Source: Pseudooceanicola nitratireducens
Lineage (GTDB): Bacteria > Pseudomonadota > Alphaproteobacteria > Rhodobacterales > Rhodobacteraceae
Direction of reading: 5' to 3'
Length of the DNA: 64,000 bases
Assembly: GCF_900109195.1 (NCBI RefSeq)
Contig: NZ_FNZG01000004.1
Coordinates: 124,001-188,000 of the forward strand
Shown here: positions 43,870 to 48,532 of the stretch, piece by piece
Numbering within the stretch: the stretch's first letter is position 1
Layout of the letters: each line of letters starts with the position of its first letter
The notes under the pieces: model-generated
Told to the model about the DNA's origin: nothing
The model's input: the letters and a program-made list of their open reading frames with translations, nothing else
The model's database searches: none
Made by a program: the position numbers and the translations under genes

Positions 43870-44364
43870 ATGACTGATCCCGCCCCCGATCACGCCCCCG
43901 ACCCTGCCGAAGTCCTCGATGCCTGCCGCGCCAAGGGGCTGCTTCTGGTCACCGCCGAAAGCTGCACCGGGGGCATGGTCGCCTCCTCTTTGGTCGATAT
44001 CGCCGGTTCGTCAGACGTGGTTCAGGGCGGGGTCGTCGCATATTCCAACGCGGTCAAGCAATCCATGCTGAACGTGCGAGAGGCGACATTGATCGCCCAT
44101 GGCGCCGTCAGCGAAGAAACCGCCCGCGAAATGGCCCAGGGCGCCCTGGCGCGTCTGGGGGGCGACATCGCGGTGTCGACGACCGGCGTGGCGGGCCCCG
44201 GTGCCTCGGGTCCGAAACCCGAGGGCATGGTCTGTTTTGCGGTTGCGCGCCGCGGCGGGCCGACCGTCAGCCAGACGGTGAACTTCGGTGCAATCGGGCG
44301 GATGCAGGTGCGCGAAGCCAGCCGCGATCACGCGTTGAAGATGGTCCTGGACGCCCTGCGCTGA
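43870..44364 (+). CDS. pncC: CinA C-terminal-domain protein (nicotinamide-nucleotide amidohydrolase)
   Basis: 164 aa. Only the C-terminal (PncC) domain of CinA is present: LLVTAESCTGGMVASSLVDIAGSS with the catalytic serine, the YSNAVKQ loop and STTGVAGPGA. Such stand-alone proteins deamidate NMN to NaMN in pyridine nucleotide recycling. It is the third gene of the ispDF-pgpA-pncC run. Often annotated as competence-damage protein CinA; the competence link is not supported for this form. Confidence 0.93.
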   Translation: MTDPAPDHAPDPAEVLDACRAKGLLLVTAESCTGGMVASSLVDIAGSSDVVQGGVVAYSNAVKQSMLNVREATLIAHGAVSEETAREMAQGALARLGGDIAVSTTGVAGPGASGPKPEGMVCFAVARRGGPTVSQTVNFGAIGRMQVREASRDHALKMVLDALR

Positions 44365-44537
44365 TCGATTCACTTCCGCTGCATCTTTGGGCGCACCCCC
44401 AATTTCAGCGATGAATTTTTGATCAGTTCCAAAAACGGCGTAATTTTTGGCGCATATCCGGACATTCGCCACTTCCTTAATCGCTATCGCCACGTCTAGG
44501 ACCCCCGGAACCACAATCGGGGAAGAGGGGAATTCCT

Positions 44538-45716
44538 ATGGTAGGAGCGGATACCGCATGGATCATCGTCGCAACGGCGCTGGTCCTGTTCATGACCTTG
44601 CCGGGGCTGGCGCTGTTCTATGGCGGCCTTGTGCGCGCACGAAATGTGCTTAGCGTCTTCATGCAGTGCTATGCCATCGCCTGCGCCATGAGCGTGGCCT
44701 GGCTGGCCGTCGGCTATTCCATCGCCTTTGGCGAGGGCAACGCCTTCTGGGGCGGGCTGGGCAAGGCGTTTCTGAATGGCGTCGATGCAGACAGCCTGGC
44801 GGGCACCCTGCCCGAGGTGTTGTTCTTCGCCTTCCAGATGACCTTTGCCATCATCACGCCCGCGCTGATCGTCGGGGCCTTTGTGGAACGCGCCAACTTT
44901 GGCTGGGTGCTGACCTTCTCGACCCTGTGGATGGTGCTTTGCTATGCGCCGGTGGTGCATTGGATCTGGGGCGGCGGCATGCTGGCCGATGGCGGCATCT
45001 TCGGCGAGACCGGGGCGCGCGACTTTGCAGGTGGCATCGTGGTGCATGAAACCGCCGGTCTGGCCGCGCTGATCATCGCCGTCATGCTGGGCGCGCGGAA
45101 GGACAAGTCCAAGCCGCCGCACAATCCGGGCTACGTGATGATCGGGGCCGCGATGCTTTGGGTCGGCTGGTTCGGCTTCAACGGCGGCTCGCAGCTGGCG
45201 GCGGACGGTGGCGCGGCCATGGCGCTGACGGTCACCCATATCTCGGCCGCGACCGCATCGCTGACCTGGGCCCTGTGGGAGAAGATCAAATACGGCAAGG
45301 CCTCGCTTGTGGGGATCGTCACCGGGACCATCGCCGGGCTTGCCTCGATCACGCCGGCCAGCGGTTTTGTCGGCCCCATTGAGGCGCTGATCATTGGTGC
45401 AATCGCCGGGATCCTCTGCCAGGAGGCCGTGAACCTTGTCCGCAACAAGCTGCAGATCGATGACACGCTGGATGTCTTTGCCGTGCATGGCGTCGGCGGC
45501 ATCTTCGGCACGATCATGATTGCGGTCTTCGGGGCCGGCACATGGGCCGCGCAGCTGGGATCGCTGGCAATTGTCGGAGTTTTCACCGCCGTGGTGACGA
45601 TCGTGCTGATCAAGCTGGTGTCCGCGATCATCCCGATGCGCGTCGATGCGGAAACCGAGACCACCGGTCTGGATCTGGCACAACACGGCGAACGGGCCTA
45701 CGACCACGTGTCGTGA
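44538..45716 (+). CDS. amtB: Ammonium transporter AmtB
   Basis: 392 aa, 11 predicted TM helices. The twin pore histidines are in VVHETAG and AVHGVGG, the phenylalanine gate region is FFAFQMTFA, and the Amt signature WVGWFGFNGGSQL is present. The gene is unusual in having no signal-peptide-like start and no glnK beside it in the window. It is expected to be under nitrogen control because the ntr operon is close, but I saw no clear NtrC site. A terminator follows. Confidence 0.95.
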   Translation: MVGADTAWIIVATALVLFMTLPGLALFYGGLVRARNVLSVFMQCYAIACAMSVAWLAVGYSIAFGEGNAFWGGLGKAFLNGVDADSLAGTLPEVLFFAFQMTFAIITPALIVGAFVERANFGWVLTFSTLWMVLCYAPVVHWIWGGGMLADGGIFGETGARDFAGGIVVHETAGLAALIIAVMLGARKDKSKPPHNPGYVMIGAAMLWVGWFGFNGGSQLAADGGAAMALTVTHISAATASLTWALWEKIKYGKASLVGIVTGTIAGLASITPASGFVGPIEALIIGAIAGILCQEAVNLVRNKLQIDDTLDVFAVHGVGGIFGTIMIAVFGAGTWAAQLGSLAIVGVFTAVVTIVLIKLVSAIIPMRVDAETETTGLDLAQHGERAYDHVS

Positions 45717-45736
45717 TCCCTGCCCCCTTAGAACTG

Positions 45737-45766
45737 AAAAGGCGCGTCCCCCGGGGGCGCGCCTTT
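45737..45766 (+). terminator. Rho-independent terminator after amtB
   Basis: AAAAGGCGCG / CGCGCCTTTT stem with a C-rich/G-rich centre (CCCCCGGGGG) and a T-run. Likely works in both directions. Confidence 0.85.
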
Positions 45767-45869
45767 TGCTTTGGGTTGGGCCCTTTGACCGGACATGGAA
45801 AAGGCCCGCCTGTCTGGCGGACCCTCTGTCGGCTTCGGGATCTGTGCGGGTCCGTTGCCTGACCGTGGC

Positions 45870-46403
45870 TCAGGCGAATTTGCTGACCCGATCTTCCGGT
45901 TGCACCGCATAGGATTTACGCTCCGCATAGGCCTGGGTGCCGTCGGTCTTGTTGACGTCAACGCGAGCAAAGGCGCCCTTTTCCTCGGTCACGGAGTCCA
46001 GCAGGCTTGCCGCCTGTTCACGCGCCTGGGATGCAATGGCCGCCCGTCGGGCAAAGTCCACGGCATCGGCCGCGGCTTCGCGCACTTCGGCCTCGCCAGC
46101 CGCAGCCGCGTTGACATCGCCCTGACCGACGGTGTCCTTTGCAGCATAGGAGGCACGCGCTGTGCCTGTGCCCGAATTCCCGGTCGCCGAGACATTGACC
46201 TGAACCGCATCGGGTTCGGCCACGGGCGCGGGGGCCGCCACAACCTGGACTTCGGACTGAGTTTCGACAGGTGCAGGATCTTCGACCTGATTGACTGTCG
46301 TTTCTTCTTTCTCGGCAGCTTTTTCAGCTGCCTTCTGCTGTTGTTTCGACCAAGCTGCCTCGGCCCATGCGCCAAAAGACGCAACATTTCCGAATAGGGA
46401 CAT
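45870..46403 (-). CDS. Protein of unrecognised family, paralogue A
   Basis: 177 aa, strong AAGGAG ribosome site 7 nt before the ATG. The N-terminus SLFGNVASFGAWAEAAW is followed by a Lys/Glu/Ala helix, a disordered Pro/Val/Ala linker (about 35-75), and a C-terminal helix-forming block with DAVDFARRAAIASQAR. This block matches the neighbouring gene (DAISYARRSAIAAQAR), and both begin with an LF..FG..W pattern. No signal peptide or TM segment. The function is unknown. The composition (Ala-rich, acidic) hints at a structural or secreted protein, but this is inference. Confidence 0.8.
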   Translation of the reverse strand: MSLFGNVASFGAWAEAAWSKQQQKAAEKAAEKEETTVNQVEDPAPVETQSEVQVVAAPAPVAEPDAVQVNVSATGNSGTGTARASYAAKDTVGQGDVNAAAAGEAEVREAAADAVDFARRAAIASQAREQAASLLDSVTEEKGAFARVDVNKTDGTQAYAERKSYAVQPEDRVSKFA

Positions 46404-46547
46404 TCGTCCACTCCTTGCTTTCTACCGGCCTTTTGCATGGGGGTAGATTGCGTTCGGATTGTGGTCGGGGTCTGTTGCTTCTGCCCATATCGTCAACATT
46501 CGCGCAGGGCCGTCATTGCAAAATAGTTAACGCCTCCGTCTGGACGT

Positions 46548-46580
46548 TCAGGGGTCGGCACCATTGGTGTAGACCCCTGA
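46548..46580 (-). other. Hairpin between the two paralogues
   Basis: TCAGGGGTC (46548-46556) pairs with GACCCCTGA (46572-46580), and CACC/GGTG pair inside with small internal loops. It lies 24 nt beyond the stop of paralogue B on the minus strand and has no T-run. It could be an RNA 3'-end structure or a regulatory element of paralogue A. Confidence 0.5.
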
Positions 46581-46603
46581 TAATACGTGAATTTATTGAC
46601 GCG

Positions 46604-47338
46604 TCAGAGCGTCATGTTGGTTTCACGCTTGTCGTCCTGACCGCTGGTATCGTTGCGGTACAGCGATGTGCTGTTCACCGACTTCATGGCGATGGCGTCA
46701 AAGGTATTGTCGCCCATGCCTTCGAACAGGTTGGCCGCGGCCACGCGTGCCTGGGCGGCGATGGCGGACCGGCGGGCATATGAAATCGCGTCAACACCGG
46801 GTTCGACCGGCTCGGCGGTTTCTTCACCATTGGCGGCCTTGCCCGAGGACAATTCGCCCTGTGCCTCGACAAGGGTCTGGACCAGGCGGCCCACGTCTTC
46901 CTTGACGCGCTGTTCGATGGACTTGCCCTTGGCGCTGACGGAGCCTCCGGATTTCTCGGCGGCCTCGCTTAGCGCGCCACCAAGGGCTGCCGCTACGCCA
47001 GCCAGGATCGAGTCGTCGTCCTGCGGATCCGCCTGCGTGGCGGTCTGCGTCGTGCTCTGGGCTGTTGCGGTGGCCTGCGGTTCCGCAGCCACCGGCGCTT
47101 CGCCAACCGCGGGTTGCGTCACCTGGGTGGCGGAAGCGGTTTCGGTCGTGGCGAGCTCAGGCTCCCACGGGGTGGGCGCAGAGGGGACCGTCACCTCGGG
47201 TTCCTGTGCGATATCTGCCATGCGGTCTTTCCAGGATCGGGCGGACCCGCCCGAAGACTGCGCCTCTTTCGCGGCTTGCATGGCAGCTTTCCAATCCATG
47301 TTTCCGAAAGCGGAAAAGAGAGAGTGGATCGAATTCAT
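46604..47338 (-). CDS. Protein of unrecognised family, paralogue B
   Basis: 244 aa, with AGGAG 7 nt before the ATG. The N-terminus is HSLFSAFGNMDWKAAMQAAKEA, then a long Thr/Gln/Ala/Pro-rich disordered stretch (about 50-105), a helical segment (AAALGGALSEAAEKSGG, VGRLVQTLVEAQGEL) and the shared C-terminal block DAISYARRSAIAAQAR near residue 180, ending in a polar tail. It is similar in order and motif to paralogue A downstream, suggesting duplication. No domain I can name. Separate 200-nt spacer and separate ribosome sites. Confidence 0.8.
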   Translation of the reverse strand: MNSIHSLFSAFGNMDWKAAMQAAKEAQSSGGSARSWKDRMADIAQEPEVTVPSAPTPWEPELATTETASATQVTQPAVGEAPVAAEPQATATAQSTTQTATQADPQDDDSILAGVAAALGGALSEAAEKSGGSVSAKGKSIEQRVKEDVGRLVQTLVEAQGELSSGKAANGEETAEPVEPGVDAISYARRSAIAAQARVAAANLFEGMGDNTFDAIAMKSVNSTSLYRNDTSGQDDKRETNMTL

Positions 47339-47466
47339 TTGCTGCTCCTAGTCGTGCTTTTGCACCTACAGGTTGTCTGCGAAATGAGTTCGGAGTGTGA
47401 TGGTTGTGGCAATTGGCTGCCTTATTCCGCGTCATCACCGCAGAGACAGCCTTGCAAAAAGGTAGA

Positions 47467-47919
47467 TTAACCTTGTTTACCGTACAATTCGGCGGCGCGA
47501 TTTTCAAAAGCGCGGACAATTCTTTGCATCGCCTCGTTGAAAACAACGCCGATAATGCCCTGAAGCACCGCGTTCTTGAATTCGAAGTCCACGTGAAAGG
47601 ACACGTCACAGCCATCTTCGGCGTCTGAAAACTGCCAATCCGACTTCATGTAGCGGAACGGACCATCCAGATATTCGGTGTCGATTTTCATGATTTGTGG
47701 CCACAATACGACGCGCGAGCCGAAGCGTTCGCGAAACACCTTAAAGGAGATCACGAGATCCGCCTCCATGACTTCATGGTCGCCGCGGTCCTCGTTCGAC
47801 CGGATTCGCGCCGCTGCGCACCAGGGCAGAAACTTGGGGTACGACCCCACGTCCGCAACCAGATCATACATCTGCTGGGCGGTGTACGGCAGGCGGCGGG
47901 TTTCCGAGTGGCGTGGCAT
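47467..47919 (-). CDS. RatA/Coq10-like START-domain protein
   Basis: 150 aa SRPBCC (START-like) protein of the RatA/Coq10 family. The start MPRHSETRRLPYTAQQMYDLVADV and YPKFLPWC block are typical. Mitochondrial Coq10 binds ubiquinone, while E. coli RatA is reported to hinder 70S assembly, so the function in this lineage is unclear. I chose the ATG at 47919 over 47934 for family fit. It diverges from hpt. Confidence 0.88.
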   Translation of the reverse strand: MPRHSETRRLPYTAQQMYDLVADVGSYPKFLPWCAAARIRSNEDRGDHEVMEADLVISFKVFRERFGSRVVLWPQIMKIDTEYLDGPFRYMKSDWQFSDAEDGCDVSFHVDFEFKNAVLQGIIGVVFNEAMQRIVRAFENRAAELYGKQG

Positions 47920-47989
47920 TTGACCCCAATGCATCGTTTACTTAAGGGGGGCATGTCGTATTTTGACGCCGCAAGTTCAAGGAAGAAAC

Positions 47990-48532
47990 ATGTCATCGCG
48001 TCCTTATGTCATCGATCAGATGATCTCGGCCAAGGCCATCGCTGCCCGTATCGAAGAACTGACGGATCAGATCAAATCCGCCTTTCCGAAAGAGGAACGC
48101 CTTGTGGTGGTGGGCCTACTGCGCGGATCCTTCGTCTTTATCGCCGATCTGGTGCGCGAATTGCGCGATCGCGACGTCGAGGTCGATTTCCTCGAAGCCT
48201 CGTCCTATGGCAATTCCACCGAATCCTCGCGCGAGGTCCGGATCCTCAAGGACCTTCGCGGCGAGATCGAGGGCCGGAATGTCCTGGTGGTCGAGGATAT
48301 CGTCGACACCGGCCACACGCTCAACCATGTGATCCACCTGCTGGAATCGCGCCACCCCAAGCAGCTGAAGACCATCGCCCTGCTGGACAAGCCGTCCCGG
48401 CGCGAGGTCGATTTCCGCGCCGATTACATCGGCTTCGAGATCCCGGACGAATTCGTGGTGGGCTATGGCATCGACTATGCCCAGTGCAATCGCAACCTGC
48501 CTTTCATCGGCAAGGTTCGCTTTACCGACTGA
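47990..48532 (+). CDS. hpt: Hypoxanthine phosphoribosyltransferase
   Basis: 180 aa purine salvage enzyme making IMP or GMP from PRPP and base. The PRPP loop [14 protein letters not shown] is clear, and the PPi loop GLLRGSFVF and the KPSRR base-site lysine are present. The start has AAGGAAG 4 nt upstream of the ATG. It diverges from ratA. Confidence 0.94.

Follow-up and report, generated by a model that had tools for sequence, protein, structure and literature searches.

PopZ-type polar scaffolds consist of a short N-terminal segment, a long acidic linker and a C-terminal helical part; phasins are small cytoplasmic proteins, and the OmpR-family regulators usually act at sites repeated in tandem about every 10-11 bp. 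The two neighbouring proteins described here, designated P1 and P2, resemble PopZ in architecture, which is a guide to what they may work like, and yet no PopZ-type Pfam match is obtained at E≤1 and we do not file them as members of that group. Like the phasins (PF09361) they are small and presumably cytoplasmic, but they have no match to the phasin profile, phasin loci differ in their promoters, which carry PhaR-type boxes, and phasin matches occur in 20 of 20 good genomes of the genus as compared to 8 of 22 for the family of P1 and P2.

Results

Organization of the locus

The window is the whole stretch of DNA analysed, 64,000 nucleotides of Pseudooceanicola nitratireducens (contig NZ_FNZG01000004.1, positions 124,001 to 188,000), in which an initial annotation made from the sequence had placed two adjacent paralogous ORFs with strong ribosome sites. 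Both ORFs are present, and good ribosome sites lie 7-13 nt ahead of their ATG codons (Table 1). The two genes follow a START/polyketide-cyclase type gene, which we take to be coq10, on the same strand and face the ammonium transporter gene amt. The coq10 gene was found in 21 of the 22 genomes of the genus. A search of positions 44300-48200 for RNA elements in Rfam (E≤1) gave no match, and no secretion gene was recognised among the neighbouring genes read. The presence of amt between cinA and coq10 varies within the genus, and in other genera an MmgE/PrpD-like ORF (assigned by eye) often occupies the slot behind coq10. The NCBIfam label that makes the coq10-type gene a RatA toxin is an automatic annotation to distrust.

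Table 1. Features of the P1/P2 locus, in coordinates of the window.
Feature	Position	Strand	Description and basis
P1	45870..46403	-	ORF, 177 aa, acidic (pI 4.6), mostly disordered by model (mean pLDDT 50.5) and composition
P2	46604..47338	-	ORF, 244 aa, acidic (pI 4.5), mostly disordered by model (mean pLDDT 55.4)
P1 ribosome site AAGGAG	46411..46416	-	Sequence
P2 ribosome site AGGAG	47345..47349	-	Sequence
P1 C-terminal helix, residues 110-140, with family motif	45984..46076	-	AlphaFold (block pLDDT 66-80 over residues 111-140); invariant columns
P2 C-terminal helix, residues 184-207, with family motif	46718..46789	-	AlphaFold (block pLDDT 74-84 over residues 181-210)
P1 putative tandem-repeat promoter element, ACCACAATCCGAACGCAATC	46446..46465	-	Motif search; begins 62 nt before ATG
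P2 putative tandem-repeat promoter element, ATCACACTCCGAACTCATTT	47382..47401	-	Motif search; begins 63 nt before ATG
P1 distal GCA-N10-TGC element	46504..46519	-	Shuffle test on promoters; initially spotted by eye in the same sequences
P2 distal GCA-N10-TGC element	47440..47455	-	Shuffle test on promoters; initially spotted by eye
coq10-type START/polyketide-cyclase gene	47467..47934	-	Constant upstream neighbour; PF03364, E 3.8e-29
Ammonium transporter gene (amt)	44538..45716	+	Convergent on the P1/P2 pair; PF00909

P1 and P2 are old paralogues

The motif A-[VI]-x-[FY]-ARR-[AS]-AIA-x-QAR that had been reported for the C-terminal block is exact in both proteins (AVDFARRAAIASQAR in one and AISYARRSAIAAQAR in the other), and the paralogy read from it holds: the last 75 residues align with a Smith-Waterman score of 86, the best shuffle reaching 59 (0 of 5000 reach the true score). 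At full length the score is 104, as compared to 92 for the best of 2000 shuffles, and BLASTP gives E 0.003 in a single comparison. The common LF..FG..W start claimed for the pair did not stand: the first 50 residues resemble each other no more than chance allows (a score matched by 1100 of 5000 shuffles).

The local duplication suggested by the initial annotation finds no support as a recent event, as the closest relative of P2 is a protein of another species: P2 scores 181 with the first of the two slot proteins of genome G006 and at most 112 with any other member, and the two are joined in the tree with support of 98/96, subject to a long-branch warning. Since P2 is nearest to a G006 protein and the slot of G006 also holds two genes, the P1/P2-type split predates the parting of these species. 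On these comparisons P1 and P2 are an old paralogous pair and not a fresh duplicate.

A family restricted to the genus

A conserved family beyond the pair exists, comprising 11 genes in 8 of the 22 genus genomes; its carriers include Pseudooceanicola atlanticus 22II-s11g, P. batsensis HTCC2597 and Primorskyibacter flagellatus CGMCC 1.12664, and in seven of the eight the gene sits directly behind coq10. At E≤0.001 the P1 query matched 4 of 60 genomes (source genome included) and the P2 query also 4 of 60, which combined gave members in G009 (two genes), G002, G015 and G006. A profile was then built from the first seven sequences and found the second G006 gene, which was not among them, at E 1.7e-9; reading the slot behind coq10 confirmed this gene and added members in G008 and G005, whose C-terminal blocks match P1 at a level reached by 0 of 2000 shuffles each and match the other members at 0-49 of 2000. 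With a later profile ten genes have E-values of 3.3e-22 or better, because those same ten genes built the profile.

The gene of G007, located between cinA and pgpA, is the least certain member and is included for its place, its promoter element and its C-terminal match to G005 (1 of 2000 shuffles) and G008 (0 of 2000); the corresponding figures are 117 of 2000 for P1 and 921 of 2000 for the second G006 gene. All 11 genes in the 8 genomes have the C-terminal R-x-x-A-[IA]-[AN]-x-Q and a place beside coq10 or cinA, the R, A and Q being invariant in 11 of 11. Nine of the 11 weak matches in the genus were examined (L061 and L068 were left out); one is the G007 gene and the others are unrelated. The source genome itself has two further weak matches (E 0.10 and 0.26). 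In 13 of the 21 genus genomes examined the slot is empty, coq10 being followed directly by cinA (10 genomes) or amt (3), and the genes are therefore dispensable at the genus level.

Relatives outside the genus were sought in 394 genomes with two profiles, A2 and A4, each scoring the best first-look candidates only, at most 15 per genome. The four non-genus matches of A2 all lie in unrelated ORFs, three at what are presumably flagellar rod genes and the fourth within a lyase-type gene. Profile A4 matched 37 of the 394 genomes (two of them of the genus) at E≤0.1, where about 39 are expected by chance, and none of the 28 places examined among its 36 outside the genus is beside coq10 or cinA. Nothing convincing thus appears beyond the genus in these two profile searches.

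The view that the proteins match no known family was borne out by the library searches. Pfam gave no match for P1 at E≤1, only two unrelated matches far below the cut-offs for P2 and one weak unrelated match for the 11 C-terminal blocks; NCBIfam gave one weak, unrelated match for each protein. No family of PADLOC (anti-phage defence) was matched at E≤0.1, two profiles found no match among the PDB sequences, and PHROGs returned weak matches only, to families without function. A limited search of the literature on Pseudooceanicola, orphan genes of Rhodobacterales and flagellin regulation, which is no proof of absence, found no description of the family. Judged from these searches, the family is absent from the libraries searched, and is real and restricted to the genus. 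A phage or plasmid origin was considered and rejected, P1 having no match in phages, P2 none in plasmids and the C-terminal block none in viral contigs.

Predicted structure and composition

AlphaFold models built with six sequences have a mean pLDDT of 50.5 and a pTM of 0.19 for P1, and 55.4 and 0.26 for P2. In both models the helix over the motif is better supported than the rest (residues 110-140 of P1 and 184-207 of P2), and P2 has an additional helix of this kind at 141-165; only these have block means above pLDDT 70, the other helices staying below 65. The models thus suggest, at low confidence, that both proteins are mostly disordered with a C-terminal helix, and together with the composition they back the Ala/Pro-rich disordered middle described in the initial annotation. 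The helix carries the sole well-kept part of the family, R-[RD]-x-A-[IA]-[AN]-x-Q followed by a hydrophobic position and then mostly Tyr.

All 11 members are acidic (pI 4.1-5.2) and without cysteine. None contains a 19-residue stretch with a mean hydropathy above 1.21, so that this hydropathy scan gives no clear sign of a signal peptide or of a membrane helix. With 100 degrees taken per residue, the mean C-terminal helix shows no amphipathic character (4984 of 5000 permutations reach its hydrophobic moment) and its conserved residues do not cluster on one face (1770 of 5000 reach the moment), which speaks against a phasin-like helix and lends no support to a simple coiled coil.

Selection on the family

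The genes of G005 and G008, the sole close orthologues, differ by dN 0.097 and dS 0.51 over the whole gene (dN/dS ~0.19) and by dN 0.061 and dS 0.383 in the C-terminal block, whereas the coq10 genes of this pair differ by dN 0.025 and dS 0.327. As seen in this pair, the family genes are under purifying selection and yet change faster than their coq10 neighbour. The selection that had been suggested for P1 and P2 is in this way seen in G005 and G008, whereas P1 and P2 themselves have no orthologue near enough for the test. Among the members at large the linker is nearly unalignable. In a protein tree of coq10 and hpt (support values not printed) the seven carriers with a coq10-adjacent gene form one clade and G007 stands outside.

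A tandem repeat upstream of the slot genes

A tandem repeat was initially noticed by eye with the upstream sequences set side by side. Motif search in 14 upstream regions, 11 of the family and three of the slot genes of other genera described below as type C, returned a 20-mer of 15.5 bits, whereas 12 shuffled sets gave no more than 10.3 bits. It ends 31-56 nt ahead of the ATG and consists of two 11-bp units, approximately RMCACATTTCG-RMCNCATTY. When the species in question was held out, the element was found upstream of P1 and of P2 (0 of 1000 shuffles each) and in seven of eight other promoters tested (0-16 of 1000), namely both of G006 (2 and 0), the first of G009 (0) and those of G015 (0), G002 (3), G008 (0) and G007 (16); the second G009 gene was not found (602 of 1000).

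Training on the eight main-type promoters gives a matrix that finds the element in G008, G005 and G007 (0, 1 and 19 of 1000 shuffles) and does not find it in type C (233, 689 and 24 of 1000). The reverse training, on G008, G007 and the three type-C promoters, settles elsewhere and finds one of the eight main-type promoters, that of the second G009 gene. A distal GCA-N10-TGC element is present in seven of the eight main-type promoters, a number that none of 2000 shuffle rounds reach (mean 0.4, most 5). By sequence, P1 and P2 each have their own putative promoter, whose conserved tandem repeat may be of the kind that precedes flagellin genes. A stretch that resembles the distal element by eye, TTTGCAAA..TGTCGT, lies ahead of the third flagellin gene in G000.

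Similar repeats upstream of flagellin genes

A loose pattern derived from all 14 sites occurs at 31 places in the source genome, as compared to 11 for the reversed pattern. Among the 30 places examined many are inside ORFs, and those with a plausible downstream start include a flagellin gene, a Tad-type pilus gene (PF13400) and several genes of proteins unknown or, by eye, exported. With a stricter pattern eight genomes gave 17 places, as compared to four reversed: six slot genes, one place before a flagellin gene of another species, and ten without a common theme.

In both species examined, G000 (C15, L176) and G002 (C5, L201), there are three tandem flagellin genes, and at a distance of 200-220 nt genes 2 and 3 are preceded by tandem repeats with 11-bp units, whose scores are reached by 74 and 13 of 1000 shuffles in G000 and by 1 and 4 of 1000 in G002. 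Ahead of gene 1 no site stands out clearly (102 and 66 of 1000); upstream of it lies a different block that is nearly identical between the two species.

A flagellin matrix was built from five sites, two of G000 and three of G002 (two of them overlapping). With it, eight of the 14 slot promoters outscore every one of 111 control genes: three of three of type C and five of 11 of the family (G008, G005, G007, G015 and the second G009 gene). The first G009 gene is reached by 2 of the 111 controls, P1 and G002 by 6 each and P2 by 14, and both G006 genes are undistinguished (29 and 34 of 111). Shuffle tests give the same picture, the matrix being weak on P1 (57 of 1000) and on P2 (127 of 1000); in P2 its best position is shifted onward by one unit (11 nt). 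As the flagellin sites were chosen with patterns from the slot genes, the link is partly circular. It is sound for some members of the class, but for P1 and P2, with their weak scores, it does no more than hint at co-regulation with flagellins.

Slot genes of other genera

The wider sample comprised 61 genomes at the level of the Rhodobacteraceae, 60 of them with coq10, and outside the source genome the slot was read in 49 of 59 (one was cut by a contig end). None of these 49 slots holds a member of the P1/P2 family. G023 and G070 have small Ala/Pro-rich ORFs on the coq10 strand, related to one another (0 of 2000 shuffles) and without recognisable relation to P1 and P2; a search of 295 genomes with a profile of the two yielded a further one (G306, E 2.6e-5), likewise behind coq10. 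These three, a second family of small disordered proteins here called type C (L148, L149 and L150, from three other genera), are not described in the literature searched.

Type C resembles P1 and P2 in the slot behind coq10, in strand, in small size and Ala/Pro-rich composition and, by eye, in a short hydrophobic start and a hydrophobic end. It differs in that homology is not recognisable, the best 12 listed profile matches all being shuffled copies; unadjusted BLASTP gives low-complexity matches down to E 9e-6, which we do not trust. It differs also in the element, which the main-type matrix misses, whereas the flagellin matrix locates it in each of the three, beginning 61-71 nt ahead of the ATG (0 of 1000 shuffles each).

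Discussion

Orphan genes usually stay unexplained for want of sequence leads, and here the control element supplies one. We tentatively propose, at well short of even confidence, that P1 and P2 are intracellular, partner-binding disordered proteins that are switched together with the flagellins and act in the transition between swimming and life on surfaces. They would be lineage-restricted, fast-changing, acidic and mostly disordered paralogues that stay in the cell, in which the conserved C-terminal helix would most likely dock on a partner and the long Ala/Pro/Glu linker would act as a spacer or scaffold. Each gene would have its own promoter, with the tandem 11-bp repeat beginning about 60 nt before the start. 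As repeats of the same kind precede two of three tandem flagellin genes in two species, we infer that one OmpR-family regulator would switch P1 and P2 with the flagellins. If true, this would identify two candidates for a part in the switch by which marine bacteria swim or settle.

As to the identity of such a regulator, the excerpts of two papers (PMC9275681, PMC10538546) describe sites repeated in tandem about every 10-11 bp as usual for the OmpR family. The consensus of Sinorhizobium meliloti ChvI, as quoted in an excerpt of PMC9731502, is N-GCC-N8-GCC, which shares the tandem 11-bp period with the slot element and recurs as GCC-N8-GCC in several flagellin and type-C sites, whereas P1 has ACC-N8-AAC and P2 ATC-N8-AAC; in the same excerpt the ChvI of Caulobacter has another motif, TTGC-N3-GCAA. 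From this comparison of quoted patterns a ChvI-like regulator is a guess. Three other candidates were set aside, to the extent of the excerpts: CenR, as the Rhodobacter sphaeroides motif TGA-N8-TGA misfits (PMC9275681), CenK-CenR of S. meliloti, for which the excerpt gives nothing that fits the slot element (PMC9561847), and the BvrR boxes, which are by eye no better match (PMC10538546).

The element ties the genus-restricted family, and possibly three unalike proteins elsewhere, to one promoter type and one chromosomal place. It is conceivable, though we regard it as doubtful, that the coq10 locus is a single ancestral one across genera, in which place, strand and a flagellin-type promoter are kept while the disordered partner-binding product changes beyond recognition, so that orthology would be seen in promoter and position without sequence and the product would be a lineage-tuned adaptor of motility or attachment. 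If true, this would be a concrete case of regulation and position outlasting protein sequence.

Several other explanations have to be weighed against intracellular partners of the flagellin programme. The genes could be fast-turnover orphans of little or no function, collected with other small disordered ORFs in a permissive spot between converging genes, which would fit their presence in only 8 of the 22 genomes with 13 of 21 slots empty, a linker that can hardly be aligned and the frequent filling of the slot in other genera by other genes. Nevertheless, the dN/dS of ~0.19 in G005/G008 and the keeping of both the motif block and the promoter element argue against it, as does the finding that all 14 slot genes read (11 family, 3 type C) are on the coq10 strand; moreover, the grouping of seven of the eight carriers in a single clade of the coq10 and hpt tree, whose support values were not printed, is expected of inheritance and not of random insertion. 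We hold this explanation to be doubtful, though worth serious consideration. Export by a non-classical route (the flagellar export apparatus, a type I system or a Tad machine) to become part of a matrix or filament would agree with the flagellin-like element of the class, with a loose-pattern place ending 83 nt before the Tad-type pilus gene and with a low-complexity composition devoid of cysteine; it is unlikely, as there is no signal-peptide-like or membrane stretch (maximal 19-residue hydropathy 1.21) and no secretion gene is recognised among the neighbours read. The suggestion of the initial annotation that the composition could fit a surface, storage or secreted protein finds no support in the same hydropathy scan, and storage does not agree with promoters free of PhaR-type boxes.

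Two more specific roles are weaker still. That P1 or P2 might serve as antitoxin to the adjacent gene, typed as RatA by NCBIfam, or otherwise be its partner, is prompted by their position directly behind it on the same strand and by the NF007999 match, but this match reaches 103.1 of 258 bits, far below the cut-off, Pfam gives the neighbour a polyketide-cyclase/lipid-transport fold and the promoters are separate; moreover, the neighbour, which 21 of 22 genomes possess, has no slot gene behind it in 13 of the 21 examined and so can do without an antidote of this kind, and we consider the idea hardly credible. Phasin-like proteins on PHA storage granules come to mind as P1 and P2 are small, Ala-rich and combine a helix with disorder, and storage was among the initial suggestions. 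Against this, no Phasin_2 match is found, all 20 good genus genomes already have phasin matches and the mean helix is not amphipathic. The promoters differ as well: with the PhaR-type box YGCRNYGCR, modelled on consensus forms given in the excerpts of PMC6201568 and PMC12542648, eight of nine phasin loci scanned (9 of 14, over 350 nt before the matched domain) carry two boxes and one carries none, as compared to 0 of the 14 slot promoters scanned over 130 nt. Conversely, none of the 14 phasin loci shows the slot motif (best score 11.2, as compared to 14.6-25.4 at true sites). A phasin or storage role was set aside on this profile (PF09361) and promoter evidence, and we regard it as very improbable.

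At L155, L158-L161, L164, L166 and L167 the two PhaR-type boxes are 28-29 bp apart and lie 150-189 nt before the phasin domain. A second short phasin-like match is present in five of the seven species with a coq10-adjacent slot gene (G000 C19:653814, G005 C2:1578937, G006 C1:601785, G008 C11:58723 and G015 C12:45229), that of G006 being just below the cut-off; elsewhere only G016 has two phasin matches.
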